DNA from: Candidatus Auribacterota bacterium
GTDB lineage: Bacteria; Auribacterota; JAFGBW01
Direction of reading: 5' to 3'
Assembly (NCBI GenBank): GCA_016932965.1
Contig: JAFGBW010000255.1
Coordinates: forward strand, 1 to 23,013
DNA: 23,013 nt
Position 1 is the first letter of the stretch, and every line of letters begins with the position of its first letter. Positions 1,487 through 14,175 of the stretch are shown piece after piece. The notes under the pieces were generated by a model. It searched no databases. It saw nothing but the letters and a program-made list of their open reading frames with translations, and was not told the DNA's origin. A program made the position numbers and the translations under genes.

Positions 1487-1640
1487 TGAGTTTTGATTTG
1501 TAAGTTGAATTCGCCTCTAGTGGGAAAAATATCGTCTCCTCCAACTATTTACGATTCGCCATTCACTTTCCAATTCTCAATTCACTTCCCCTTCGCGTTC
1601 TTCGTGGTGATCTTAATTCCTTGTAAAAGTTATAATGGAC
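1487..1640 (+). repeat. Dispersed composite repeat, copy A (fragment)
   Basis: The 1440-1765 gap between nadB and the next gene contains a degenerate right half of the composite repeat found in four other gaps. The arm CTTCGCGTTCTTCGTGGTGA lies at 1591-1610 and TATAAT at 1631-1636, at the spacing seen in the other copies. It is preceded by the interior phrase TTTTGATTTGTAAGTTGAATTC and by CCATTCACTTTCC and CAATTCTCAATTCAC, which resemble interior phrases of copies B, D and E. No recognisable left module is present, so the 5' boundary is approximate. No gene is seen in this gap. Confidence 0.55.
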
Positions 1641-1765
1641 AGCAATGATGATAGATAATCCGCCATTTTTATTTCTTGACCGTCCGGAAGAGAAAAAATA
1701 TGTGAGTGAAAAATGGGAATAGTCTTTTTTTAAACTGAAGCTGTGATCAGCCTTGATGGTGTGCC

Positions 1766-2623
1766 ATGAAAAAAATATTGTTCTGTTTTTTTGTTTTGTA
1801 TGCTTCCTGCGGAGTCAGGAAGGGTTTTTCTGAAGAGACGCTGAGGATCATTTCTCTTGCTCCGGCTACAACGGAGATTCTCTTTGCCATAGGATTAAAC
1901 AGGGAAATCATTGGAGTGAGTTCATATTGTGATTACCCCTTAGAGGCCAGAGAGAAGGAGAAACTGGGATCGTTCAGCCAACCGAATATCGAAAAAATTG
2001 TTTTTTTAAAACCCACGATAGTTTTCTGCGCTGATCAGGAACAGGCTCCTGTCAGGGAACAATTGGAGAAATTAGGAATAAAAGTCTATGTGAACGCCCC
2101 GGTGAACATGGAAGAGCTGTTGAGTTCGATCCGGGAGATAGGCACTCTCGTTGACAGGGAAAAAGAGGCCTTGAAATTGATCGAAAACATCAGTAAGAAC
2201 CTGGCTGAAGTCACGGCCCATGTTCATTTGGTGCCAAAGGGAAAACGCTTGAAAGTATTCCTTGAAATCTGGCATGATCCTTTGATGACAGCGGGAAAGG
2301 GTTCTTTCATTGATGATCTCATTACTCTGGCAGGAGGGATCAATATTGCTCACGGAACCAAAAGACCGTATAGTATTTACAGCGTTGAAGAAGTGATCAG
2401 ACATGATCCGGACTGTATTATTTTTGCCTATATGAATGAGGATTCCCAGAAGAGAGTGCAAGAAAGGCTCGGCTGGCAAACCGTTTCCGCAGTCAGAAGT
2501 GGCCGTTTGTATAATGATATCATGCCGGATTGGCTGTTGCGTCCAGGCCCCAGGGCGATATTAGGGGTCAAAGCAATCTGGAATTCTCTGTATGGGGCTG
2601 AATACGGATCAATCGATGATTGA
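1766..2623 (+). CDS. Periplasmic ABC-transporter binding protein, BtuF-like (cobalamin/siderophore type)
   Basis: Predicted periplasmic substrate-binding protein of the helical-backbone class (BtuF/FepB/FhuD fold), which delivers cobalamin or an Fe(III) complex to an ABC importer. The 285-aa product starts with a signal sequence (KK, then LFCFFVLYA). The motif RIISLAPATTEILFAIG at residues 28-43, then IIGVSSYCDYP (48-58), match the start of BtuF-like proteins, and the C-terminal half contains the expected PLMTAGKGSFIDDLITLAGGINIA segment. A Cys at residue 15 could be a lipobox Cys, but Tyr-Ala-Ser-Cys is a poor fit, so a soluble or lipid-anchored form cannot be decided. No permease or ATPase gene is adjacent, so the substrate is not known; cobalamin is the best guess from similarity. 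Its TGA stop (2621-2623) also forms the first bases of repeat copy B. Confidence 0.8.
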   Translation: MKKILFCFFVLYASCGVRKGFSEETLRIISLAPATTEILFAIGLNREIIGVSSYCDYPLEAREKEKLGSFSQPNIEKIVFLKPTIVFCADQEQAPVREQLEKLGIKVYVNAPVNMEELLSSIREIGTLVDREKEALKLIENISKNLAEVTAHVHLVPKGKRLKVFLEIWHDPLMTAGKGSFIDDLITLAGGINIAHGTKRPYSIYSVEEVIRHDPDCIIFAYMNEDSQKRVQERLGWQTVSAVRSGRLYNDIMPDWLLRPGPRAILGVKAIWNSLYGAEYGSIDD

Positions 2624-2949
2624 TCCGGCGACTGTATCGGGTGATGGATTACTCAAGTTGGACAGTGACGGAATAGCATAGGAAACCATGAAGGAAAATA
2701 GGATGAATTTTGAGTTGTGAATAGTTTATAGTGACTGATGACGGGGTAGCCAATAACCCCTTTCTTTTCACCATTCACGGTTCACTATTCTCTGCGCCTC
2801 AGCGGGAGTAGTTTTTTTCGCGAGCGTATGCGAGCATCGCCCTTTCGTGTCCTCCGTGGTGAAATAAAAATATTTAAATATAATAAAATGATATAAATGG
2901 TTATGCTCATTTTAAGCGGTTCACATTTGAAGATATAGGCCGTATTTGA
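2621..2949 (+). repeat. Dispersed composite repeat, copy B (full length, diverged left half)
   Basis: Fills most of the gap between the BtuF-like gene and the SDR gene. The left end TGATCCGG (2621-2628) overlaps the upstream stop codon. AAGTTGGACAGTGACGGAA (from about 2655) aligns to AAGTTTGACAATTCCGGAA of copies C and E. The interior carries TTTTGAGTTGTGA (also in copy C), a GGGGT/ACCCC stem-loop, a 7-bp inverted repeat GAATAGT/ACTATTC (2719-2725 with 2784-2790) and the phrase CTCTGCGCCTCAGCGGGAG. The right module starts with CGTGTCCTCCGTGGTGAAAT (2846-2865), then TATAAT (2879-2884), TTATGCTCATTTTAAGCGG and TTCACA, and ends in GTATTTGA (2942-2949). The left half has no clear CACCACGGAGG arm. 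Confidence 0.7.
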
Positions 2950-2967
2950 TTTGAAAGTGGGAGTTTC

Positions 2968-3714
2968 ATGATCACTTATGATTTCAGAGGAAGAAAGGCC
3001 GTCATCAGCGGCGGAACCAGGGGCATCGGCAGGGCAGTGACCGAGGCTTTTTTAAAGGCCGGTGCAACAGCGATCGTCACTTATCGTTCCAACGAAAAAG
3101 CGGCTTCTGAATTTAAATCAGCCAATGAGTCCTGTTCCGGAAGACTGGAATTATATAGCGTGGACTGTTCTGATTCAAACCAGACAGAAAGTTTTTTTCA
3201 TCTGATTCAGAATCGCCATGGATCCATAGACATCTTAGTGCATTCAGCGGGAGTGAGGAATGATTCGGTTTTAGGCATGATGACTCTGGATCAATGGCAC
3301 TCGGTCATTGATACCAATCTGAACGGTACTTTTAATATGGCAAGAGGAGCGGTTCTGAGTATGATGCCGAAACGATATGGACGCATCCTGTTTATTACCT
3401 CAGCCGCATCACGGATTGGTTTTCAAGGGCAGACCAATTACACGGCTTCCAAGGCCGGTCAGATAGGGCTCATGCGGTCCCTTTCCAGGGAGACTGCCAC
3501 AAGAGGCATTACGGTTAATTGCATTTCCCCGGGATTCATTCAGACTGATTTTTTACAAGGACTGGATGAGGAACACACGCGGAACTACAAGGATTTGATT
3601 CCCCTGAAACGTTTTGGAAGCCCGAAAGAGGTGGCGGATTTGATCCTGTTTCTGGCCTCGGAAGAAAGCTCCTATATCACGGGCGCTGCTTTTGATATCA
3701 CAGGGGGGTTATGA
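2968..3714 (+). CDS. SDR-family oxidoreductase, FabG-type 3-oxoacyl-ACP reductase
   Basis: NAD(P)H-dependent short-chain dehydrogenase, most like 3-oxoacyl-[ACP] reductase FabG, which reduces beta-ketoacyl-ACP in fatty acid synthesis. The 248-aa length is typical. The nucleotide-binding motif SGGTRGIG spans residues 14-21, HSAG is at 92-95 (NNAG in most members), Asn-117/119 lies in DTNLNG, and the catalytic set is Ser-145, Tyr-158 and Lys-162 in NYTASKAG. The C-terminus SSYITGAAFDITGG matches the classical SDR ending (ITG..xxVDGG). A GGGAG Shine-Dalgarno precedes the ATG. It overlaps the next gene as ATGA, so the two are translationally coupled. No other fatty-acid genes are adjacent (no acpP, fabF or fabD), so it could instead act in polyketide, PHB or another acyl pathway; for that reason I do not assign the symbol fabG. 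Confidence 0.85.
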   Translation: MITYDFRGRKAVISGGTRGIGRAVTEAFLKAGATAIVTYRSNEKAASEFKSANESCSGRLELYSVDCSDSNQTESFFHLIQNRHGSIDILVHSAGVRNDSVLGMMTLDQWHSVIDTNLNGTFNMARGAVLSMMPKRYGRILFITSAASRIGFQGQTNYTASKAGQIGLMRSLSRETATRGITVNCISPGFIQTDFLQGLDEEHTRNYKDLIPLKRFGSPKEVADLILFLASEESSYITGAAFDITGGL

Positions 3715-4187
3715 TGGATTTGACTTTTCTTCGACATGGTGCGGCCACTTCTCAGGCGATAACAGATGAGGAACGGGCTTTGACTGAGGCGGGAAAAAAC
3801 CAGGTGAAACGATTGGCGCTTTGCCTGAAAGAATCGGGAGAAACGTATGATCGTATCTTTAGCAGTCCGCTCCGAAGGGCGATTGAGACGGCGCAGATTT
3901 TTGGTGAGATGTTTGGCAAACCCATCGCAAGCGATTCCAGGCTGGCCTGCGGATGCCGTCTGGAGATGATCCGTGAATTGGCGGAAGAATGCGAGTGGCA
4001 GAAACGGTTGCTTTTTGTCGGACACTCCCCGGATTTTGAACTGATTTCAGCTCAATTGCTGGGTATTCCCAATACGATCGATTTTAAGAAAGGCGCTGCA
4101 TTGAAGCTTTCCACGACCTTGATTTCCCCGGGCACCGGGAGCCTGTTTTTTTTTATTCATCCCGAGCTGATTGGACGAGATTTATAA
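3711..4187 (+). CDS. sixA: SixA-type phosphohistidine phosphatase (histidine phosphatase superfamily)
   Basis: Cytosolic histidine phosphatase; in E. coli SixA removes phosphate from phosphohistidine on phosphotransfer proteins. The 158-aa length fits this small family. The catalytic RHG is at residues 8-10 (LRHGAA), a second conserved Arg lies in SSPLRRAIETA (51-61), and the second active-site His is 105 in LFVGHSPDF. The start is ATG 3711 or ATG 3714 (MMD); the first overlaps the upstream stop (ATGA), suggesting coupling to the SDR gene. Its 3' end overlaps the convergent ParB-like gene by 35 nt. The substrate is not evident: the nearby response regulator and the histidine kinase at 16 kb are in other operons, so any link is speculative. 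Confidence 0.85.
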   Translation: MMDLTFLRHGAATSQAITDEERALTEAGKNQVKRLALCLKESGETYDRIFSSPLRRAIETAQIFGEMFGKPIASDSRLACGCRLEMIRELAEECEWQKRLLFVGHSPDFELISAQLLGIPNTIDFKKGAALKLSTTLISPGTGSLFFFIHPELIGRDL

Positions 4188-5133
4188 AATTCCTGTTTTT
4201 TTTGAGTTTTTGCAGAGTTTGAAGCATTTTCGTGAAATCTTGCATAGAACGGAACGTGAATTTCAAGCGGTATTCATCGTCTTCGTAATACCGGTCCTGT
4301 TGAAGCTGGATGGAAGCAGGCAGTTTTAAGGAATGAATGAGGTCCGTTGATTTTTTGTGATGAGCGCAGAAAACGGGATACCGCCGTTCTTTGAGTTGTT
4401 CAAGAAGTTGATCCGTTTTTTGTGTCCGTGTGAGGACGATATTGTCCATGGTGTTTTTAACTTCAGGCAAAGCGAACAGTTCCTTTAAAGTTTGATTCTC
4501 CCTGTTCAGGATATCTTCAATAAGACGGACCATCTCTTTTTGATGGTTTTTCCCCATTTTAAGAGACGTCATGGCATGAAGTAAAAGCATCTGTTCTTCG
4601 TCAGGGATTTTTTTAAAGAGGTCAAGCACGTCCAGGCTGATGCACTCTCGTGCAAAGGCTTGTTGAACCGGTTCGGAGAAAAGAAGGATATCATGGAGCC
4701 ATTCAATCCCCTGAGCATGGGATCCGAGTTCAAGGGCATAAAAACGATTGCTCAAAGCCTCGGCATCTGTTGAGAAATAAAGTTCAATGAGCCGCACGAT
4801 ATGAGCCGTTTCAATCAGATGGAAGGTTCGCGTGCTCAGGTTTTCGAAAAAAGCCACATCAAACAATACCTGGTTGGGAACATGTTGGGAGACAGTCCAG
4901 ACTTGGGCGGATGGGATAGGCTGTTCTTTCAATGTTTTCAACCTGCCGTATCCACATACGATACAATAGCGGCCGGATTGTTTTTCCTGAACCAGGGGCG
5001 GGTTCAGAATTCCGGAAGCGAGGATGGATCTTCTGAGTGATTTGAAGTCTCGGAAATAGGACATCCGGTAGGAGATATCATCCCAGTCAATCTGATCCAG
5101 GGAGATGGTTTGAAGTTGCCTTTCCGGAAGCAC
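4153..5133 (-). CDS. ParB-like N-terminal domain protein (orphan)
   Basis: The 326-aa product opens with a ParB/Spo0J-type domain: LDQIDWDD (12-19), SLRRSILASGILNPPLV (32-48) and YCIVCGYGRLKTLKE (56-70). The last is the counterpart of the ParB Box II (GERRxxA), in which G-E-R-R has become G-Y-G-R. This degeneracy makes CTP-dependent clamp function like that of true ParB doubtful. The middle (90-230) is helical with no clear HTH. The C-terminal segment (about 250-326, with RYYEDDEYRLKFTFRS) resembles the tail of conserved hypothetical ParB-like proteins I associate with deltaproteobacteria. There is no parA beside it, so a role in segregation is not supported; a regulatory role is possible. 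It starts 3 nt after the MYG1 gene stops and is the last gene of that operon. Confidence 0.7.
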   Translation of the reverse strand: MLPERQLQTISLDQIDWDDISYRMSYFRDFKSLRRSILASGILNPPLVQEKQSGRYCIVCGYGRLKTLKEQPIPSAQVWTVSQHVPNQVLFDVAFFENLSTRTFHLIETAHIVRLIELYFSTDAEALSNRFYALELGSHAQGIEWLHDILLFSEPVQQAFARECISLDVLDLFKKIPDEEQMLLLHAMTSLKMGKNHQKEMVRLIEDILNRENQTLKELFALPEVKNTMDNIVLTRTQKTDQLLEQLKERRYPVFCAHHKKSTDLIHSLKLPASIQLQQDRYYEDDEYRLKFTFRSMQDFTKMLQTLQKLKKNRNFINLVQSARDE

Positions 5134-5136
5134 GAT

Positions 5137-6012
5137 TTATTTTTTTGCCCCTTTCAGGGCCAGATTGGCGGCATGCAGGGCCGCTTCCTTGGTTTTAAAG
5201 GCGGCCATGAAACGCTGCTTGTGACAGAAGATGGCTTCCTTCAGACCACATTTTTTTTCAAGATCCCCTTCCAGAAGTCCTGCCCAACTTTCAGGCAGCT
5301 TGATGCGGCTGGAATAGGGATTCTCCCGGGTTTCAGGAATGGTATGAAGGATCCATTTTTTTTTCGTGACAGGAAAAATGGCCAGCCAGATATCTTCACA
5401 TTCCGGTTCTTCCCATACATACTCTTTCCAGGGGATCTGATCATCCAGGACCAGGAGATGAGGAGGCATGCTTTTCTGTTTTTTCAGGATTTCCCTGAAT
5501 ATTTTTCTGTATTTCTGCTTTTGGATATACCGGTTTTTTAAGCGCTCCAGGAATTGACAGGTGAGGATAACGGCTTCTTCAAATTTGACGAGATAGTCTT
5601 TTTCGGACACGGACGGCAAAAAGGGATTGAAGCTCCAGATGAAATCGCTGAAAGTACAGATTCCTGACTGGGGCGAATAAAGGCCATTATCCTGTCTGTC
5701 CACTCCGTTGATGAATAGCTCCTCCAGATATTCGGCAAACTTGATGTCCAGCTTTTCTTCCCTGACCAGCCATTTCAGCACCATTCCTGCAGAAGCCAGT
5801 CTGCCTTCATATTCTTTCTGATGATGGTCAAAACGTTTCTTTTCCGGATTGTAAATTCCGCCGACATCGAGGACAATATCCGCCCTTTGTATGAGTTCCA
5901 TATCCCGGGTTCGTTCCAGGGTGAAATTTCCAAGCGTCCATCTTAGGAGACTCACTCCTACAACGTCATCAGCGTGGAATTCCCCGTCATGAGTGACAAC
6001 CACAAGAGCCAT
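5137..6012 (-). CDS. MYG1/UPF0160-family DHH-like phosphoesterase (exonuclease-like)
   Basis: Metal-dependent phosphoesterase related to DHH proteins; eukaryotic MYG1 is a 3'-5' RNA exonuclease, while the bacterial members are not well characterised. The 291-aa product starts with the family signature THDGEFHADDV (7-17), followed by ADIVLDVGG (44-52), the metal-binding FDHHQKEYEG (61-70) and GVDRQDNG (103-110), all in the expected order. The C-terminal half contains PESWAGLLEGDLEK and AIFCHKQRFMAAFKTKEAALHAA, also typical of MYG1. An AAGGA Shine-Dalgarno lies 7 nt before ATG 6012. It sits between the 4-TM membrane protein and the ParB-like gene, reading in the same direction, and is probably cotranscribed. 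It probably acts on RNA in the cytosol, by analogy only. Confidence 0.88.
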   Translation of the reverse strand: MALVVVTHDGEFHADDVVGVSLLRWTLGNFTLERTRDMELIQRADIVLDVGGIYNPEKKRFDHHQKEYEGRLASAGMVLKWLVREEKLDIKFAEYLEELFINGVDRQDNGLYSPQSGICTFSDFIWSFNPFLPSVSEKDYLVKFEEAVILTCQFLERLKNRYIQKQKYRKIFREILKKQKSMPPHLLVLDDQIPWKEYVWEEPECEDIWLAIFPVTKKKWILHTIPETRENPYSSRIKLPESWAGLLEGDLEKKCGLKEAIFCHKQRFMAAFKTKEAALHAANLALKGAKK

Positions 6013-6059
6013 AATATTTTCCTTTATATATGGGTTTTATTTCTATGAGTCACGGCAGT

Positions 6060-6671
6060 TCAAATGCGCTGCACTAAATATAAAAGTAAGCCCGAGAGAA
6101 AGAGCAGTGACCATCCCGTGCATTTGGAATGGCCGTAAAAAAAGTTATCCACTGAAAATTCTTTCTGAACGGTTTTTTTCAGATAATCGGTTGGAATGCT
6201 TTTATTGGTCCAGCGTAACAAACGGAAAGCGTATTGAGGAATGATTAAAATCGAGGTGCCCAGAATGATAGAGAAAAAAGAAATGATCCTGAAGATGTGG
6301 GTAGCGAGCGGATAAAGGACGTCTTTTGAGAAATACAAAAAAATGCCGGTACGGAAATTATCCAGCAGATCGACATTCAACTCGCATTTGCAATACAGGG
6401 CCAGAAGGAGAAAGACAGAAGGCAGAAGGATGAGAATCGTTCCTGTGATCAAATGATGATTAAAAAAAAGATGTTCCAGATTTCTGGATTCGTCGAGATG
6501 TTCATCCATTTTATTAGATGAAGTGAAGCATTTCCCGGATAATTTTTTTTCTATTTTTTTTACCGTTTCAGGGCTTGCAATGAGACCTATGCCGAGGAAT
6601 ATCCCAAGGATTGCGCATGATTTCAGGAAAATAAAGGCTGAAGGGATGAGAATGATAGAAATCCAGTTCAT
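6060..6671 (-). CDS. Hypothetical membrane protein, about four TM segments
   Basis: I do not recognise this 203-aa protein. It has hydrophobic segments at roughly residues 4-32, 74-92, about 118-142 (KDVLYPLATHIFRIISFFSIILGTS, in part) and 182-199, separated by polar loops. A hydrophilic loop at 38-72 is rich in Lys, Glu and His. There are no catalytic motifs. Its ATG overlaps the stop of the response regulator by 4 nt (ATGA, 6668-6671), so the two are translationally coupled; the protein may be the membrane partner of that regulator, but nothing in the sequence proves it. The 47-nt gap to the MYG1 gene is short enough for one transcript. Confidence 0.7.
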   Translation of the reverse strand: MNWISIILIPSAFIFLKSCAILGIFLGIGLIASPETVKKIEKKLSGKCFTSSNKMDEHLDESRNLEHLFFNHHLITGTILILLPSVFLLLALYCKCELNVDLLDNFRTGIFLYFSKDVLYPLATHIFRIISFFSIILGTSILIIPQYAFRLLRWTNKSIPTDYLKKTVQKEFSVDNFFYGHSKCTGWSLLFLSGLLLYLVQRI

Positions 6672-7045
6672 GTAAGCATCCGGGAAGAATATTTGCTGAT
6701 TTTAATGAGGAGTCCGTTTGTATCAGGGCATTTGACAAAAAAATCGTTGGCTCCGGCCTGGACCGCCTTAATAACGGAGGTTTTATCGGCATTTGCGGTC
6801 AGAAAAATGACGGGTATATCCTTTGTGTCAGCTTGGGATCTGAGTTTGGAACACAGGGTATAGCCGTCTATTTCAGGCATGACAGCATCCAAAAGGATGA
6901 TATCCACGGAAGTATCTGCCAGAATTTGCATGGCTTTTGCAGCGCTTTCAGCGCAGAAGACTTCGTATCCGGCATTGCGGAGATCCGCGCTGTAAATATG
7001 CCGGATGAAAGCCTGGTCATCCACTATCAAAACTTTATTTGACAT
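6668..7045 (-). CDS. Single-domain response regulator (CheY-like receiver)
   Basis: Stand-alone receiver domain of 125 aa that accepts phosphate from a histidine kinase. The acid pocket is Asp-9/Asp-10 (VDD), the phospho-acceptor is Asp-53 in ILLDAVMPEIDG, the switch Thr is 83 (FLTANAD), and the conserved Lys is 105 (FVKCP, where most members have KP). No output domain follows, so it acts by protein contact, as CheY or Spo0F do. It is the first gene of a four-gene minus-strand operon and is coupled to the membrane protein behind it. No kinase is adjacent. The gap to the divergent tRNA gene (7046-7169) is AT-rich and has TTGTCA/TGACAA boxes, but I could not define a convincing promoter in it. 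Confidence 0.92.
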   Translation of the reverse strand: MSNKVLIVDDQAFIRHIYSADLRNAGYEVFCAESAAKAMQILADTSVDIILLDAVMPEIDGYTLCSKLRSQADTKDIPVIFLTANADKTSVIKAVQAGANDFFVKCPDTNGLLIKISKYSSRMLT

Positions 7046-7169
7046 GCTGGGTTCTTTCCGTGAGGTTTGACTGACGAATTAAATTTGTCAAAATTTTAAA
7101 AAATCGTCATTTAAAAAATAGTGACAAGGAAAATAAAAAGAATTAGCGTCCTCTTCGTATTTTTTCAAG

Positions 7170-7242
7170 GCACCTGTAGCTCAGTGGATAGAGCATTGGT
7201 CTTCGAAACCAAGGGCCGTGGGTTCGAATCCCTCCAGGTGCG
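7170..7242 (+). tRNA. tRNA-Arg, anticodon TCG
   Basis: Cloverleaf fits by eye. The acceptor GCACCTG (7170-7176) pairs with CAGGTGC (7235-7241), with discriminator G at 7242. The D stem is GCTC/GAGC. The anticodon stem is TTGGT/ACCAA around the loop CTTCGAA, so the anticodon is TCG, reading CGA-type Arg codons. The T loop is TTCGAAT with stem GTGGG/CCCTC (one T-T mismatch). CCA is not encoded (TCAT follows). The repeat copy C begins about 50 nt downstream. Confidence 0.95.
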
Positions 7243-7290
7243 TCATTATTTCGGTTAAATGAATGCTAACTAAGCCTCTATGAGTAATGA

Positions 7291-7603
7291 CTGATCCGGT
7301 AAACCACCACCATAGGAGGTTGACTAGCAAAGTTTGACAATTCCGGAAATATTAAAAAGAAATAATTTCACCGCGGAGGGAATGGGAAAAATTTTGAGTT
7401 GTGAGTGTCGAATTATGAGTTAACAGATGAAATTTCATTTAACTCAAAATTTTAAACTCAACACGCATAACTTTTTTTCCTTCGTGGTGAATAAATTTGA
7501 ATAATGAACTATAATGTATGATCACGCTGCTTTGAGTGGCTTTATATATGAGGCTTTGAGGCGGGGATATTTTCATGCCGCCGAATCGGCCGGTGATATT
7601 TGA
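7291..7603 (+). repeat. Dispersed composite repeat, copy C (full length)
   Basis: Occupies the gap between tRNA-Arg and the LolA-like gene. The left module runs from TGATCCGGTAAACCACC (7292) through GCAAAGTTTGACAATTCCGG (7327-7346) to TTTCACCGCGGAGGG (7367-7380). The interior (7381-7477) has a 13-bp perfect inverted repeat (7388-7400 with 7441-7453) and an alternative nested one (7416-7423 with 7439-7446, around the palindrome ATGAAATTTCAT). The right module has TTCCTTCGTGGTGAA (7477-7491), TATAAT (7510-7515), ATGATCACGCTGC, TTTGAGTGGC, a GCCG/CGGC hairpin and CCGGTGATATTTGA (ending at 7603). The rest of the gap (7243-7290 and 7604-7632) shows nothing else except the ribosome-binding site of the next gene. 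Confidence 0.8.
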
Positions 7604-7632
7604 TTCACTAATAATAGTCGGAAGTTTGACTG

Positions 7633-8457
7633 ATGGAAAGCATCTTATCAGGCATGAAACACCATGATGAATCTATTCTGTCTTTTGTGTGCCGAATCAG
7701 GCTTTTTATTGCTGTGATAGGATGGCTGGTATTATACCATGGTCTGCTTTTTGCCCGGGATATCGGGGAGCTTTTAAATCAGCTTCAAAATAACATGGAG
7801 ATCACAACCGACGTCAGGGCGCTTGTGCTATTGACTCAGCAAAAGGCTGAACAGGGGACCAAGGTCATTGGGATGGAATATTACAGGAGGGACAGGGATG
7901 ATTCGTTTTTAATCGTCATGACGGCTCCGGAATCCGACAAGGGGAACGGTTATTTAAGAGTCGGGGATAATTTCTGGATGTATCGGAAAAATACGCGCAC
8001 TTTTCAGCATATCAACCGTGATGAAAGCATAGGAGGAAGCGACGCCAAAGCGGATGATTTTGAGAAACGCAAACTCACGGAATTGTATGAGGGAGCCAAA
8101 GATATTTCCGGCTGTGAAATATTATCCGAGACCCTGTTGGGAAAAATTCCTGTCTATCGATTTGAGGTCAAGGCCAAGGTAAACGACGTGGATTATCCGA
8201 AGAAAATCTACTGGATACGCAGAGATAACTATCTTCCTTTAAAAGAACAGTCCTATTCACTTTCCGGAACGCTCATGCAGACAGCCTATTTCAGAAAATA
8301 CACGATGGTCAAAGACAAATATGTCCCTATTGAGCAGCTTTTTATTGATGAATTTGAAAAGGGGAATAAAACCCTTGTTGAAATATCGGGTATTTCCATC
8401 GAGAAGCTCCAGGATTCCATTTTTACTAAAGCGTATCTGGAAAACCTGAGTAAATAA
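7633..8457 (+). CDS. Outer membrane lipoprotein-sorting protein, LolA-like (TP_0789-type family)
   Basis: Exported protein of 274 aa with a LolA-like fold, annotated in this family as outer-membrane lipoprotein-sorting protein; it is presumed to bind lipid or lipoprotein in the periplasm. Residues 22-41 form a hydrophobic signal segment ending LLFA, with the mature part starting near RDIGELL. The body matches the family: RALVLLTQQKAEQGTKVIGMEYYRRD, then a hydrophobic-binding strand pattern with GYLRVGDNFWMYRKNTRTF, then SDAKADDFEKRKLTELYEG, and KIYWIRRDNYLPLKEQSYS. GGAAG lies 8 nt before ATG 7633; an internal ATG at 7654 is possible. Homologues usually neighbour an outer-membrane barrel and an ABC or RND exporter. 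The barrel gene follows here, but no exporter is present. The pair is separated by 640 nt holding repeat copy D. Confidence 0.82.
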   Translation: MESILSGMKHHDESILSFVCRIRLFIAVIGWLVLYHGLLFARDIGELLNQLQNNMEITTDVRALVLLTQQKAEQGTKVIGMEYYRRDRDDSFLIVMTAPESDKGNGYLRVGDNFWMYRKNTRTFQHINRDESIGGSDAKADDFEKRKLTELYEGAKDISGCEILSETLLGKIPVYRFEVKAKVNDVDYPKKIYWIRRDNYLPLKEQSYSLSGTLMQTAYFRKYTMVKDKYVPIEQLFIDEFEKGNKTLVEISGISIEKLQDSIFTKAYLENLSK

Positions 8458-8664
8458 TGATTGAGAATTGAGAATTAAAAAATCGACAATTCAGAAAGAA
8501 CGCCTTCGGTGTTTTGTCTCGGATGATAAAATTATCCGGCTGCCTTGCAGACTTATTATTTCGTAGCGTAACGAAGATCGCGACCGATAGGGGGAGTCAC
8601 GTTAGGGATGGAGGCCAGAGGCAGGAACAGTTTTCGATCCTTAGTTTTAAAAATATTGTGCAAA
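8458..8664. other. Intergenic segment before repeat copy D
   Basis: No gene seen. It starts with a short tandem phrase GATTGAGAATTGAGAATT (8461-8478), of the same kind as AATTAAGAATTAAGAATTGA at 14018-14037. Around 8565-8625 is CGTAGCGTAACGAAGATCGC, then AGTCACGTTAGGGATGGAGG, with a TAACG/CGTTA pairing. It resembles a GGATGG-bearing segment inside copy E (13963-14012), so it may be another exchangeable piece of the same repeat system. Confidence 0.4.
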
Positions 8665-8980
8665 TTAATCAATCCGGTAAACCACCGGCACAGCCTTTGG
8701 ACTGGCAAAGTTTGACAGATACGGAAGTATTTATAATTTATTTCATCACTCCACGCGGAGAGCACGGAGAAAGCAGGTGAAACGCCTGTAATTTGAGATT
8801 TGAAATTTGTCATCTGAGAGTCATCATGCCTTCAAGGCATGATGACTAAATCTGTGTCCTCCGTTGTGAAAAAAAACAATAATAAAATATAATCAACGAT
8901 CATGCCGCTTTGAGTGGTTCACAAGAGAGGCTTATAGCAGATAATAATTTCAAGCCACCGGCTCTGCCGGTAGTATTTGA
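8665..8980 (+). repeat. Dispersed composite repeat, copy D (full length)
   Basis: The left module has AATCCGGTAAACCACCGGCA (8671-8690), TTTGGACTGGCAAAGTTTGA (8696-8715), TTGACA (8712-8717), a nearby TATAAT (8732-8737) and TTTCATCACTCCACGCGGAG (8741-8760). The interior holds a perfect 14-bp inverted repeat with a 1-nt centre at 8819-8847. The right module has TGTCCTCCGTTGTGAAAAA (8855-8873), TATAAT (8888-8893), GATCATGCCGCTTTGAGTGG (8899-8918), TTCACA, a strong ACCGGC-TCT-GCCGGT hairpin (about 8957-8971) and GTATTTGA (8973-8980). It lies between the LolA-like and beta-barrel genes. Confidence 0.8.
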
Positions 8981-9097
8981 CTCGACAGAAAAGAAGATAA
9001 ACGTGAGCAAAAAATAAACCGGACAGTAGTAAATGCATATAAAGAATATTTTTTTAATTCTGAATTTTCAATTATAATCAGGTGAATCTGCGCATTC

Positions 9098-10441
9098 ATG
9101 GATGGAATCAAAAAAATGAAATTGGTTCTCAACAGATTTATGATCATAGAGACAGGACTTTCTTTTTTTCTGCTTTCCTTTTGCTTTGCAGACGGACAAG
9201 TGGATGAGGATGCCATGTTTTCCGACACCCAGACCGTGGTGGATAATGCAAAAATCCTTTCTGTATTTCCAGCATCAGAAGAAGGCAAAATCAGTTTCGG
9301 AATTTCAGGTGACATAAACGGCGGCACGGATTTCACCCTGATGCGCGAAGAAGACGATAATGAATTGGAATTATTTTTATTGGGAAACGTGTTTCTGGAT
9401 GGAAGACTTTCAAATGGTTATAAGGCGTTTGGCAATGTTGAGAGCCGGTATTTTTCCCGAAATGGGGAATGGAACATAGCCGCTCGGGAACTATTTTTTG
9501 ACCTGCATTATGAAAATAAAATCTATTTCCGGATTGGAAAACAGGTTCTTCAATGGGGGCGGTGTTATCTTTGGAATCCTACGGATCTGATCAATGCGGA
9601 AAAGCTGACTTTTGAAAAAAGAATCGGCTATCGCGATGGTGTTTACGGCCTGCGTATTCATCAGCCTTTTGGAACGGAATGGAACTGGTATGCTTTCATT
9701 CATACGGGAAAGAGGGTTGAATCCGATGAAATAGCCGGGGCTTTCAAATTGGAAACGCTCATAGGGAATACGGAATTTTCAGTTTCAGTCTGGGATAAAA
9801 AGCATGCGCAGACGGTTTACGGGGCGGATTTTTCAACGCGTATTTGTAAAATAGACGTCTCGGGAGAAATCAGTACGTCGCATGGTTGGAATGCGGACAT
9901 GATGGAAGAAAAAAACGGGATATTATTCATAGAGAAAAAAGATGACGGATGGTTTACCCGGGCCAGTCTTAATCTGGGAAAGCAGTTTGACTTTAATGAT
10001 CAAAACGACAAAATATCCGTTGCCGGGGAATATTTTTATAATCAAGCGGGGTATGGAGAAAATATTTTCAGGGATAAAAAGATGTATCTCTATCAGACCC
10101 CGGTAATGGTGGAGAGCATGCCCATTTCTGTTTATTCCGGGGATAAAAAAACTTTTTTTTTATTAAACCATCTCTTTGAGATGAATTATTACAGCAGACA
10201 TTACGGTGCCCTGTTCATTTCAGTCAAAGAATTTTTCACCAGCTCTCATACGCTGAATCTCAATTGTCTAAGTAATCTGGATGACGGTTCCGCTATGATA
10301 TCCTTGGGATTGGACTACATCAACATCAACGACTGGAATATGAGTTTAATCTATTATTGCTATGCCGGGCCTTCTGATTGCGAATATACTTTTTTGCGTC
10401 CGGCAGGAATGATGCATCTGGTGATAGGAGTCAAATTTTAG
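9098..10441 (+). CDS. Outer-membrane beta-barrel protein, LolA-associated type
   Basis: Exported 447-aa protein. The signal sequence has KLVLNR as n-region, then IIETGLSFFLLSFCFA, with likely cleavage before DGQVDED. The mature part has the alternating polar/hydrophobic strands of a barrel and ends in VIGVKF; a C-terminal Phe is the usual recognition end for BAM-dependent insertion. The segment YFRIGKQVLQWGRCYLWNPTD (about 147-167) is of the GRQ..WG..WNPTD type found in barrels that accompany LolA-like proteins and exporters. I do not recognise a named family with certainty. The start is ATG 9098, or ATG 9116 (MKLVLNR), which has GGA at good distance and gives a cleaner signal peptide. Paired with the upstream LolA-like gene; probably transports or assembles a lipid or envelope component. 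Confidence 0.75.
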   Translation: MDGIKKMKLVLNRFMIIETGLSFFLLSFCFADGQVDEDAMFSDTQTVVDNAKILSVFPASEEGKISFGISGDINGGTDFTLMREEDDNELELFLLGNVFLDGRLSNGYKAFGNVESRYFSRNGEWNIAARELFFDLHYENKIYFRIGKQVLQWGRCYLWNPTDLINAEKLTFEKRIGYRDGVYGLRIHQPFGTEWNWYAFIHTGKRVESDEIAGAFKLETLIGNTEFSVSVWDKKHAQTVYGADFSTRICKIDVSGEISTSHGWNADMMEEKNGILFIEKKDDGWFTRASLNLGKQFDFNDQNDKISVAGEYFYNQAGYGENIFRDKKMYLYQTPVMVESMPISVYSGDKKTFFLLNHLFEMNYYSRHYGALFISVKEFFTSSHTLNLNCLSNLDDGSAMISLGLDYININDWNMSLIYYCYAGPSDCEYTFLRPAGMMHLVIGVKF

Positions 10442-10875
10442 GCAGACCTGATTGTCTTGGTTCTAATACCAAGTTATCTTTAAGAATAAAAAGATTAGAA
10501 ACCACGACTCAAAACAGGATGCCCGCAGTCACAATACACGAAAACATGATTTTTTCAAAGTTGAACTGTAAAACAACTATGGCAGCAAGGCAGCCGAATG
10601 ATTTTATGATCCAATGCAAAATGCCGAAGGCGATCCTTTTGAATTTTCGATTCTCAATTCTTTATTAAATTATTTTGATGCTAATATTGATGGAAAAGAT
10701 TAGGCTTTATTGCATGACATAACCGGAAGAAGCAAACCCGCTCCTGTTAGCCTCTTCCGTTTCCAGGTCAGAATGATTTACATCTGAATCTTATCATGGT
10801 ACAGAGATAGCAATACCATGAGATGAAAAAGGCTAGAATCGTTGGATTATATCGAGGAACTTTCACTGATTATCC
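10442..10875. other. 434-nt intergenic region with small inverted repeats
   Basis: No coding region is supported. There is an 8-bp inverted repeat TCATGGTA/TACCATGA with a 12-nt loop (10794-10801 with 10814-10821), and a 7-bp one CGGAAGA/TCTTCCG (about 10724-10759). Neither is followed by a T-run, so neither looks like a terminator. Near 10640-10668 is TTTTCGATTCTCAATTCTTT, the reverse-complement type of the short phrase seen in the composite repeats, but without the repeat modules. I do not recognise a riboswitch. The region probably contains the promoter of the 987-aa gene. Confidence 0.4.
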
Positions 10876-13839
10876 ATGAAGAACCATATTTGCATTCTTA
10901 AAAAGATGTCCAGACAAGGGAGTCTGGTCCCCTTATGCTGGTTGATGCTCATCATGTCGCTTTATTCCCAGGACGATCAGCAAACTCGTTCTTTTCCGTC
11001 TTCTCAGTCATCGGAAATTCAAGCATCGGAAATTCAAGCCGTTACGTTGAAGCGGGAAAAAATTGATGAACAAATACTGAATCATTTCCTGAAGCAACTG
11101 GCCAGCGCCGCGTTTGGAAACTACGGGAGCAGTATTATGACTGATTCAGCGGCGTTCGATGTATTTTATCGCAATTATAATTACAATCCCGAAAGGCTGA
11201 TCAAGGAAATCCCTCTTGTAGAAACTCAGTCTATCGTCAGCATTGTCAAGGCAACACTTGCCAAGCTGCAGCCTCATTCTTTTTCTTCGATTTTGACATC
11301 AGCAGGAGATTATTTTCTCTATTGCAAAACAATCCGGGGCCCTAGGATTTTGACTCTCACCAGGCATCGTTTTTCAGAAACTTTTTATGAGGAAGAGTAC
11401 GAGGGCTGGTATTTATCTGTTCTTTCTCCGGAAATATTCACAAAAAATCTTCTACTGAACGTTGTTTATTTTGACGCGGTCAGAGATAACCACTATTTTA
11501 TTCAGGATCTTATCGGAGGCATGTCGGTTCTTGAATCGTCGTATTATGCAGGATTCAGTGAGTTAAACAGGCTTTTTTTCGAGACAACACCCCTCTCAGG
11601 ATATGATGTGGCCAGCATCACCCAGGAAAACCGGTATTTTCCGGAGCGTCATACATGCCAGAGGCAGCTGAATTTTTTATCTCTTCCTGTTGTTCAATAC
11701 ACGGTTTTGAATAATGAGTTCAAAGATTATTATTTCATGGTGGAAGAGCCATCCATTTTAGATAGCTTAAAAATCTTTTTGGAAAAATATGCCCATTCTT
11801 CCAAAGGATCCAGCGCTGTTTACTCGCAATTGAATACGTTTATCTCCTGTATCCAGGCACACTCGTTTGATCAGAAAACGTTTATGCCTGATCTTCAGGA
11901 TCTTTTTGAAGAATTGAATTATTCCATCAATTATGACGCCATCGGGCAGAATAAAAAAGACGAGGTTTTTCATCATCTGAAAATTTTTCTTTTCAGCAAC
12001 GGCATTGCCGACATGAATGAATTGAAAACCGATAAGGCCTTTATCGAAAAAATCATTGAGAAATTTTTTGTTTTGGGGACCACGTATTTTTACCGTTGCT
12101 GGAGCAACATAGCCCCTTTTGAGAACTATCTCGATGCCATTAAAGAAAAGGCTGAAAAGCAGGACAGGCCGGTTAAACTGAAGGTCTTCGCCTGTTCAAC
12201 CGGAGAAGAGGTCCTCACTTATGCCTTCACACTGATAGACAAGGGCATCACCCGTTTCACCATATTGGGTTCCGATATCAACGCAAAATTCATAGAGACT
12301 GCTCAAACCATGACGTATTCAAGAGAGAGTTTCGAGCGTCTGCCTGAAGGGATCAGAAGACATATTCTTAGAAAATATTTCAGTAAAACTCCCGATGGCT
12401 ATGAAATAAAAGATAAGGATTTTTTTTCAAAAAGAGTTTTCTACAAAGTGCTGGATATCACCCATCCTCTTCCCCGGGATTTGCCTGAAGAAATAGCCCC
12501 TCCTTACGATTTGATTTCCTGTCAGAATATATTTTTGTATTTGAATCCGGATATCGTTCCCGACCTGTATCATTCCATATTGAAAATGCTCGCGGATCAG
12601 GGACTGTACATTCTGGTTGATAAATATTGCGACCATTATTCTTTGGAAAAAAGAATTCGTCCTGTCCGGAAACTGTTTCATATCAATAAATATATGGTTC
12701 AGGTTCATTCTAAGAATTATCCGCAACTTGCGTTGATTTCGAAGCTGAAAAAAATCAACAAGGATGATTATTCTTTTGAATCCTTGAGACAATATGACGA
12801 AATATCCGGCATGTCCGCAGACGAGAAAAAAGCATGGTATTCCAGCCTGCTGAAAATGCCCGGGAACCGGGAAATGCTGATTTTATTGGCCAGCCGTAAC
12901 TTGATCAATTCCCAGTCATACCAGGAGGCAGATCAGTTGCTTCATGATGGGATTTATCAGTATCCGTATCTCCTTGATAATTACATTTATTTGAAGGAAG
13001 TCCAAAAAAAATTGAATCATCCGAAAGAGGCTGAATACTTAAGGCTGATCATCAGTGCGATAAACTTGATTTATAATTTCGAAAGGACTGAATCCATTTC
13101 GCAATTTCTATCTTTTTTCAAACAAGCTTTGGAACTGCAACCGGATGAGTTATTAGGATACTACAGCCTGGGATATCAATTGCTGCGTCATGCCATTAAG
13201 TTGAAACAAGAAAATGCCTTTTTAGTGGATTATGAGCTTTTTTTAAATCAGGCATTTAAAAATTTATCTTATGTACAGAAAAAAGATCCAAAAAATGTTT
13301 ACGTAGGGCGAGGCATCGCGGAAATTGCCCTGACGTTATACCCATATTATATCAGAGAACAGAACCATGATATAGCTGACAGGCTCATATATAATGCTTT
13401 GGTTCATTATGAGTCCATTGCGAGAAACAGCACTAATTTTTCAGTTCTTTACAATTTGGGTCAGCTTCAGCTTAGAATGGGAGCGTCATATTTATCCTAT
13501 CAGCTTTCTGAAAAAGCTTATGATATTGTTTTAAGGGCCTTGACTTCAATGGACAAAGCTTTGACCAATTCAAAAAATATCACTTACATTTATTTATACC
13601 GATATCATGTGGATTATGCCGAATTATGGCTTAATTTATATAAAATCCTCAAAAAATTGCCTTTGATAAAAAGGGAATTATCACCGGCAATCTGTCTCGG
13701 AAACGCCATGAAAAGCATTGATAAAGCCTTGATGTATAATTCAGTCTATGGGATAGAGGCTATTGAAATGAGGAACCAGATTTTAATGGAAAGTGCATCA
13801 TTAAAAGAGGATTTCGAGAAAACGTTCAATTGTGAATAG
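10876..13839 (+). CDS. CheR-like methyltransferase with N-terminal hydrophobic segment and TPR-type C-terminus
   Basis: Large 987-aa protein. Residues 1-31 resemble a signal sequence or anchor (KK, then LVPLCWLMLIMSLYS), followed by a Gln/Ser-rich linker with the repeat SEIQA. Residues 60-340 match nothing I know. Residues 340-610 form a CheR-type SAM methyltransferase: a helical lead-in ending GTTYFYRCW (401-409, counterpart of TTFFRD), motif I ACSTGEE (439-445), acidic Asp-467 in GSDI, and SCQNIFLYL (548-556, counterpart of CRNVLIYF). Chemotaxis CheR methylates receptor glutamates; here several consensus positions differ (GEEP to GEEV, CRN to CQN). Residues 640-980 are helical repeats of TPR type. 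No CheB, receptor or other chemotaxis gene is nearby, so its target may be another protein. The start could be ATG 10876 or ATG 10906; both keep the hydrophobic segment. Confidence 0.75.
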   Translation: MKNHICILKKMSRQGSLVPLCWLMLIMSLYSQDDQQTRSFPSSQSSEIQASEIQAVTLKREKIDEQILNHFLKQLASAAFGNYGSSIMTDSAAFDVFYRNYNYNPERLIKEIPLVETQSIVSIVKATLAKLQPHSFSSILTSAGDYFLYCKTIRGPRILTLTRHRFSETFYEEEYEGWYLSVLSPEIFTKNLLLNVVYFDAVRDNHYFIQDLIGGMSVLESSYYAGFSELNRLFFETTPLSGYDVASITQENRYFPERHTCQRQLNFLSLPVVQYTVLNNEFKDYYFMVEEPSILDSLKIFLEKYAHSSKGSSAVYSQLNTFISCIQAHSFDQKTFMPDLQDLFEELNYSINYDAIGQNKKDEVFHHLKIFLFSNGIADMNELKTDKAFIEKIIEKFFVLGTTYFYRCWSNIAPFENYLDAIKEKAEKQDRPVKLKVFACSTGEEVLTYAFTLIDKGITRFTILGSDINAKFIETAQTMTYSRESFERLPEGIRRHILRKYFSKTPDGYEIKDKDFFSKRVFYKVLDITHPLPRDLPEEIAPPYDLISCQNIFLYLNPDIVPDLYHSILKMLADQGLYILVDKYCDHYSLEKRIRPVRKLFHINKYMVQVHSKNYPQLALISKLKKINKDDYSFESLRQYDEISGMSADEKKAWYSSLLKMPGNREMLILLASRNLINSQSYQEADQLLHDGIYQYPYLLDNYIYLKEVQKKLNHPKEAEYLRLIISAINLIYNFERTESISQFLSFFKQALELQPDELLGYYSLGYQLLRHAIKLKQENAFLVDYELFLNQAFKNLSYVQKKDPKNVYVGRGIAEIALTLYPYYIREQNHDIADRLIYNALVHYESIARNSTNFSVLYNLGQLQLRMGASYLSYQLSEKAYDIVLRALTSMDKALTNSKNITYIYLYRYHVDYAELWLNLYKILKKLPLIKRELSPAICLGNAMKSIDKALMYNSVYGIEAIEMRNQILMESASLKEDFEKTFNCE
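11009..11038 (+). repeat. In-frame 15-bp tandem duplication
   Basis: CATCGGAAATTCAAG occurs twice without any gap (11009-11023 and 11024-11038), giving SSEIQASEIQA in the linker of the CheR-like protein. The copies are identical, so the duplication is recent or kept by slippage. Being a multiple of three, copy-number change would not shift the frame. Confidence 0.9.
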
Positions 13840-13840
13840 G

Positions 13841-14175
13841 ATCAATTAATCCGAGAAACCACCGCAAGAGGATTTGGACTGGCAAAGTTTGACAATTCCG
13901 GAAATTTGAAAAAGAAATAATTTCACCACGGAGGACACGGAGGGGAGAAGGAATTGAGACTCGAAGCCAGGACGGCGAAGTCGCTCGTAAGAGCAAGGCC
14001 TGGATGGCCGTAGTCCAATTAAGAATTAAGAATTGAGAATGGGGAGGGGAATACGCGGATTCCTGGAATTTGAGATTCATCATGCCTTAAGGCATGATGA
14101 CGGACTCCGTGCTTTTTGTGAATTTTGTGGTTTAAGAAAATAAGAAAGATATCCGATCGTTCGAGTTGATTCTCA
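13841..14175 (+). repeat. Dispersed composite repeat, copy E (full length, diverged right half)
   Basis: Starts directly after the stop of the CheR-like gene (13839) and fills the gap to the convergent rnz gene. The left module is the best preserved: AATCCGAGAAACCACCG (13848 on), TTTGGACTGGCAAAGTTTGA (13873-13892), CAATTCCGGAAATTTG and TTTCACCACGGAGGACACGG (13921-13940). The interior holds GCCAGGACGGCGAAGTCGC and GGCCTGGATGGCC (13964-14010), tandem AATTAAG phrases and a perfect 24-nt palindrome (14077-14100), whose sequence is shared with copy D. The right module is decayed: CTCCGTG (14105-14111), TTTTGTGGTTT, GATCGTTCGAGTTGATTCTC (14155-14174), without TATAAT. No further feature in 14176-14223. 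Confidence 0.75.

Follow-up and report, generated by a model that had tools for sequence, protein, structure and literature searches.

The stretch of DNA analysed here (the window) is 23,013 nucleotides long and comes from a Candidatus Auribacterota bacterium. It raises the question of how an intergenic repeat can keep constant ends around interiors that change from copy to copy. The initial annotation described five gaps between genes, here called A to E, as holding one element in one orientation, with common left and right parts and at least two kinds of interior.

A gene-less family spread through the genome

The composite repeat carries no gene and is a genuine family, spread genome-wide between genes. 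Searched with a covariance model of its left end (L), the whole genome of 3.14 Mb yields 76 copies, three of them in the window (E 3e-12 to 1e-15). Iterated profiles, run on 976 kb of the genome partly chosen for matches, detect 70 left ends and 52 right ends (R), and 37 of these left ends are followed by R at most 450 nt away on the same strand. Such numbers are far above chance, and the condition set at the outset for a simple local duplication, a profile that finds these five copies alone, does not hold. The features of the window are as follows.

1487-1640, plus strand: gap A, interior-module remnant with heptamer tracts and a TTCGTGGTGA arm (sequence reading)
2624-2950, plus strand: gap B, degenerate copy directly 3' of a stop codon, with a CCTCCGTGGTGAAA arm and a right part ending in TATTTGATT (visual alignment only)
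7287-7355, plus strand: copy C, left end L, hairpin and ACTRGYAAAGTTTGACA (model E 2.9e-12; alignment)
7366-7491, plus strand: copy C, interior, arm TTTCACCGCGGAGGG...TCCTTCGTGGTGAA enclosing the heptamer-type palindrome GAGTTGTGAGT...AACTCAAAATTT (sequence reading; self-complementarity z 6.2)
7520-7605, plus strand: copy C, right end R of the R2 kind, terminus TATTTGATT (nhmmer E 1.2e-13)
8484-9033, plus strand: host repeat F2 around copy D, its right arm resuming at 8983 (empty-site alignment to L151 and L059; M8 match)
8665-8733, plus strand: copy D, left end L (model E 1.2e-15)
8741-8872, plus strand: copy D, interior with CACGGAG-type outer arms at 8741-8772 and 8853-8872 (sequence reading)
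about 8772-8845: copy D, interior module M4 in plus orientation between the outer arms (module scan, orientation test)
8898-8982, plus strand: copy D, right end R of the R2 kind, hairpins GCCGCTTTGAGTGGT and GCCACCGGCTCTGCCGGTAGT, border TTTGACT (nhmmer E 1.7e-18; border analysis)
13842-13910, plus strand: copy E, left end L (model E 4.5e-13)
13921-14100, plus strand: copy E, interior with a CACGGAGG arm and GAATTGAGAATT tracts (module scan, sequence)
13958-14016 and 14064-14100, plus strand: copy E, interior modules M5 and partial M4, respectively (module scan)

Copies C (7287-7605) and D (8665-8982) are complete. Copy E has a left end only, no right end being detected in the profile search. 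The left and right parts of B have decayed too far to give a profile match at E<=0.01, and A matches neither L nor R. The common left part is confirmed for C, D and E, where it aligns at 67-86% identity in a repeat search, and the common right part for C and D. What had been read as a family of five gaps becomes three clear members (C, D and E), one probable ruin (B) and one fragment (A), within dozens.

In 42 other genomes of the phylum the covariance model finds no left end. Two other genomes from the same order were compared; both belong to another family, and both are without L. Viral contigs contain no match to the L pattern, the outer arm of the interiors or M4. Among GTDB r220 contigs the L pattern matches ten loci only, all in Streptococcus, which are taken as chance matches. 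The letters of the repeat do not occur in the text of papers searched for them.

Ends, borders and empty sites

Without its interior, the frame (L plus R) is about 150-165 nt long. In the alignment, L spans about 67 nt and consists of ATTAATCCGGTAAA, a hairpin CCACCGGC-ACA-GCC..TGG with variants that include CTCCGGCTCAGCCGGA, and then ACTGGTAAAGTTTGACAGATACGGAAG. There are two kinds of R, which have in common the last hairpin, CCACCGGCTCTGCCGGTGG, and a tail that reads TATTTGACT, TATATTTACT or TAACTGACT. The element also contains a near-invariant TTTGACA. The two hairpins of the frame stand in direct, not inverted, order, and the L and R hairpins carry the same unusual variants (CCACCGGCACAGCCTTTGG in both).

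Some copies come close to the bare frame. The ends of L038, L065 and L153 are separated by only 20-41 nt, with almost no interior. In L070 the palindrome TTTCACCACTCCGTGTGGAGTGGTGAAA stands alone between the ends, and in L154 a single hairpin connects the left border with the right border.

Base frequencies give sharp and polar borders. The left border falls between TTA and ATTAATCCGG, the right border directly after ..TKACT, and beyond them the flanks are near background. The ends, ATTAATCCGG and ..TTGACT, form no terminal inverted repeats. There is no target duplication either, since flank sharing is 1.67 observed against 1.70 permuted.

Insertion can be recognized by comparison with empty sites, for which the flanks of each copy were rejoined by script and the genome was searched with the joins. 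These comparisons are paralogous, not orthologous. Two copies, L070 and L153, lie at one identical point of another repeat, F3. The rejoined flanks of L153 align to an empty F3 at L164, joined between GTATTATC and TTTTCGAAGCGAAGC, with zero bases gained or lost, and those of L070 align at the same point. Copy D lies within F2, and its flanks rejoin onto the uninterrupted L151 and L059, with a few bases differing at the junction. Together with the copy number and the sharp borders, these empty sites bear out the earlier suggestion of a non-autonomous element family.

The two host repeats are intergenic families of their own. F2 is found in the window at 8484-9033 and 10578-10652 and at L151:3376-3628; its ends are near-palindromic (TCACTACTGTCCGGTTTATTTTT...AAAAATAAACCGGACAGCAGTGA), with module M8 inside, and it is MITE-like with terminal inverted repeats. 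F3 is a third, palindromic family (CACGAAAAGCACGAAAGACACGAAAA...TTTCGTG), present at L148, L149, L164, L088, L070 and L153, which the element has entered twice at the same point.

Short tracts at the feet of the hairpins could pair with the borders. On the right, the guide TCAA, complementary to TTGA, tends to occur with the tail xGA and TAAA with xTA (21:2 vs 3:7, p 0.0008), an association that may be partly subfamily inheritance. On the left, the guide TAAA is complementary to TTTA.

Interiors as nested palindromic modules

The exchangeable interiors were rightly recognized at the outset, but their variety was underestimated: the modules are of at least four kinds, nested, some in both orientations. 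Interiors are layered inverted repeats (median self-complementarity z 3.7) with an outer arm of the CACGGAGGACACGGAG type. Inside this arm are heptamer palindromes (GAGTTNTGAGT), GAATTGAGAATT tracts, M4 or M5. M4, which consists of two hairpins flanking TTTGAGATTTGAAATTTG, occurs in frames both ways round (9 plus, 6 minus). M4, M5 and M8 are found also apart from any L or R, and a solitary outer-arm palindrome lies at L147:4768-4917.

The kind of interior is independent of the left end, against a single phylogeny of ends and interiors. Copies that share an interior are no more alike in their left ends than copies with different interiors (p 0.24), while the kind of R does track left-end similarity (p 0.03).

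The initial annotation ascribed this exchange to recombination or conversion between copies, among other possibilities. Conversion is a possible contributor. Separate insertion of modules, into the linker and into one another, better accounts for interiors that occur either way round or stand alone elsewhere, and for an identical outermost arm within other frames of other genomes. The two arms of one copy pair weakly better with each other than with those of other copies (p 0.05, outer part), and a within-copy test detects no arm covariation inside the outer part; the nesting of inner modules thus rests on reading the sequence and on the separate modules, not on strain-level empty sites.

The outermost arm, of the CACGGAGG type, is not limited to this genome and there lies in other frames. 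Its 16-mer occurs in 7 of 44 genomes of the phylum, 21 times in one of them (G021), and the reversed control has zero matches in the same 44. Twelve loci were read in other genomes of the phylum, and what surrounds the arm there is different. At L177, in G021, CACGGAGG arms enclose more inverted repeats in a stack, one of them a GTCATTGCGATCCCGC...CAATGAC palindrome. At L167, in G014, there is an array of CACGGAGGACACGGAG and GGATCAACAGGATCAAC...GATCCTGTGAATCCTG units.

Candidate mechanisms and related systems

The simplest reading is that of a relict family. The frame is given slightly better than an even chance of being a relict non-autonomous mobile element of the single-strand type that hosts nested palindromic modules. 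In this model, the frame would insert without target duplication, in a polar manner, 3' of a TTA-like sequence, by way of its folded top strand. At each end a hairpin would carry, at its 5' foot, a short guide tract able to pair with the border of the element. The AT-rich linker would serve as a landing pad for palindromic modules. A CACGGAGGACACGGAG-type inverted repeat would arrive there first, and other modules would then enter it in either orientation, producing nested palindromes while the outer ends stay constant. The interiors would accordingly have arrived through insertion into palindrome centres.

The absence of target duplication, the TTA-like target on the 5' side, the hairpins near both ends and the border-complementary tracts liken the element to HUH/Y1 single-strand transposition. 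Elements of the IS200/IS605 type and their non-autonomous derivatives similarly lack terminal inverted repeats and target duplication, have a target tract on the 5' side and carry subterminal hairpins with guide tracts, to which the tracts described here may correspond. They differ in that neither tnpA nor tnpB was found in the present genome, and here the pairing of guide and border is inferred only.

The genome (G000, 92.6% complete) has no match to the Y1 transposase (PF01797), to TnpB or to reverse transcriptase, and since it is incomplete the absence of the enzyme from the organism is not proven. Y1 genes occur in 32 of the 43 genomes of the phylum searched. Among relatives in the same order, G002 has 8 Y1 and 14 recombinase matches and G001 has 5 Y1 matches. 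In no copy was a transposase gene seen enclosed by the element ends. L057, the sole long-spacing pair inspected, was considered as an autonomous copy and rejected, its ends lying 1.7 kb apart around ordinary genes; further L-R pairs occur at spacings of 1-7 kb. The frame was probably moved by a single-strand enzyme of the HUH/Y1 type, now lost or encoded in an unassembled part of the genome, and the family is probably now mostly immobile.

A doubtful variant shifts the activity to the interiors. Here CACGGAGG-type and other palindromic modules would insert into palindrome centres, driven by host replication or by some unknown enzyme, in unrelated lineage-specific frames and across several of the phylum's genera. 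The present frame would be one carrier among these, moving without a Y1 enzyme.

Unlikely is a model with no mobility at all, in which old duplicated repeats are reshuffled by gene conversion and by template switching at palindromes. Quasi-palindromes are known sites of template switching, and the unusual hairpin variants common to both ends (CCACCGGCACAGCCTTTGG) would suit such an exchange. Against the model stand the clean single-position insertions into the unrelated F2 and F3 and the sharp borders, which need an insertion step.

A further model, rather unlikely, is a structured RNA or regulatory element, such as a riboswitch, terminator or small RNA, that selection maintains at numerous genes. 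In its favour are several hairpins whose changes are paired: the columns of the L hairpin hold 22 cells of paired change, against a shuffled mean of 10.0, and also exceed slid controls. The near-invariant TTTGACA likewise speaks for it, as does the predominance of G.T wobble pairs over A.C on the top strand. By alignment column this predominance is 27:4 in the left hairpin and 33:22 in the right, and interiors have 66:45, while a stricter hairpin count shows no strand lean (G.T 7:4 and 7:7). The lean would fit the folded top strand of the single-strand model and also an RNA, in copies that are related to each other.

The context of the element argues against an RNA. It shows no preference for where, or which way round, it lies among genes (same direction 25, opposite 17, divergent 12, convergent 11), so that a role as terminator or 3' UTR was rejected. 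The last hairpin is not followed by a T run, and paralogous empty sites lie within other repeats. A TATAAT had been noted in the right part. It is present within the AT-rich linker, but promoter spacing after TTGACA is not enriched, and a sigma-70 promoter starting from TTTGACA was dismissed for want of -10 enrichment at 16-18 nt. Rfam matches in the window amount to one tRNA; a riboswitch, suggested by the c-di-GMP-like look of AAACCACC..GCAAAG, has no Rfam match.

Just as unlikely is mobilization by a RAYT, as in a true REP/BIME/REPIN family. The element resembles such families in its many intergenic copies with one or two hairpins, its non-autonomous state, its single-strand logic and its border at CT (PMC3116915, PMC8266576, PMC3733652). 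It has hairpin ends, paired hairpins with a spacer and a copy with a single hairpin, and its right border falls at the CT dinucleotide at which TnpA-REP cleaves (PMC8266576). REP elements also occur inside longer palindromes, in A. variabilis, T. roseum and H. neapolitanus (PMC3733652). However, the present element has large exchangeable interiors and a hairpin pair in direct order, the hairpin foot of its aligned ends bears neither a GTAG nor a CGTC tag, and no RAYT was found in the genome.

Very improbable is a classic MITE of a DDE transposon: the element is short, AT-rich, multicopy and gene-less, but the two defining features, terminal inverted repeats and target duplication, both fail. 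Integron-like attC sites would explain constant ends around a variable palindromic middle in multiple intergenic copies, yet they hardly come into question, as the element is not confined to one direction after genes, no GTTRRRY/RYYYAAC core was noticed by eye in the ends, and the genome has only two tyrosine recombinases, both Xer-like and below the XerC and XerD cut-offs (one passes a general Xer-type cut-off), with no integron integrase above cut-off.

The closest known systems, besides REP/REPIN, are BOX and the small dispersed repeats (SDR). In cyanobacteria, the latter are tiny repeats inserted into heptamer hairpins, whereas here the palindromes belong to a larger frame whose borders are defined. 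Both small dispersed and heptamer repeats of cyanobacteria are named in PMC3116915. BOX elements of Streptococcus have constant 5' and 3' modules and a variable middle; in S. suis, boxB is the middle common to boxA-C and boxE-F elements, and RUP, BOX and SPRITE elements insert into one another (PMC3049150). The likeness of fixed ends and a variable middle is one of architecture only. The middle of BOX is largely one module repeated in tandem, while here it is built of several unrelated kinds of nested palindrome, some of which occur in either orientation.

The element raises the question of what moves such repeats where no known single-strand transposase was found. Repeats of this kind clutter the genomes of uncultured bacteria, and this one now has a described anatomy, defined borders, a copy number and a mode of insertion. 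The lineage-specific carrier can also be told apart from the interior arms, which are shared by several genera.
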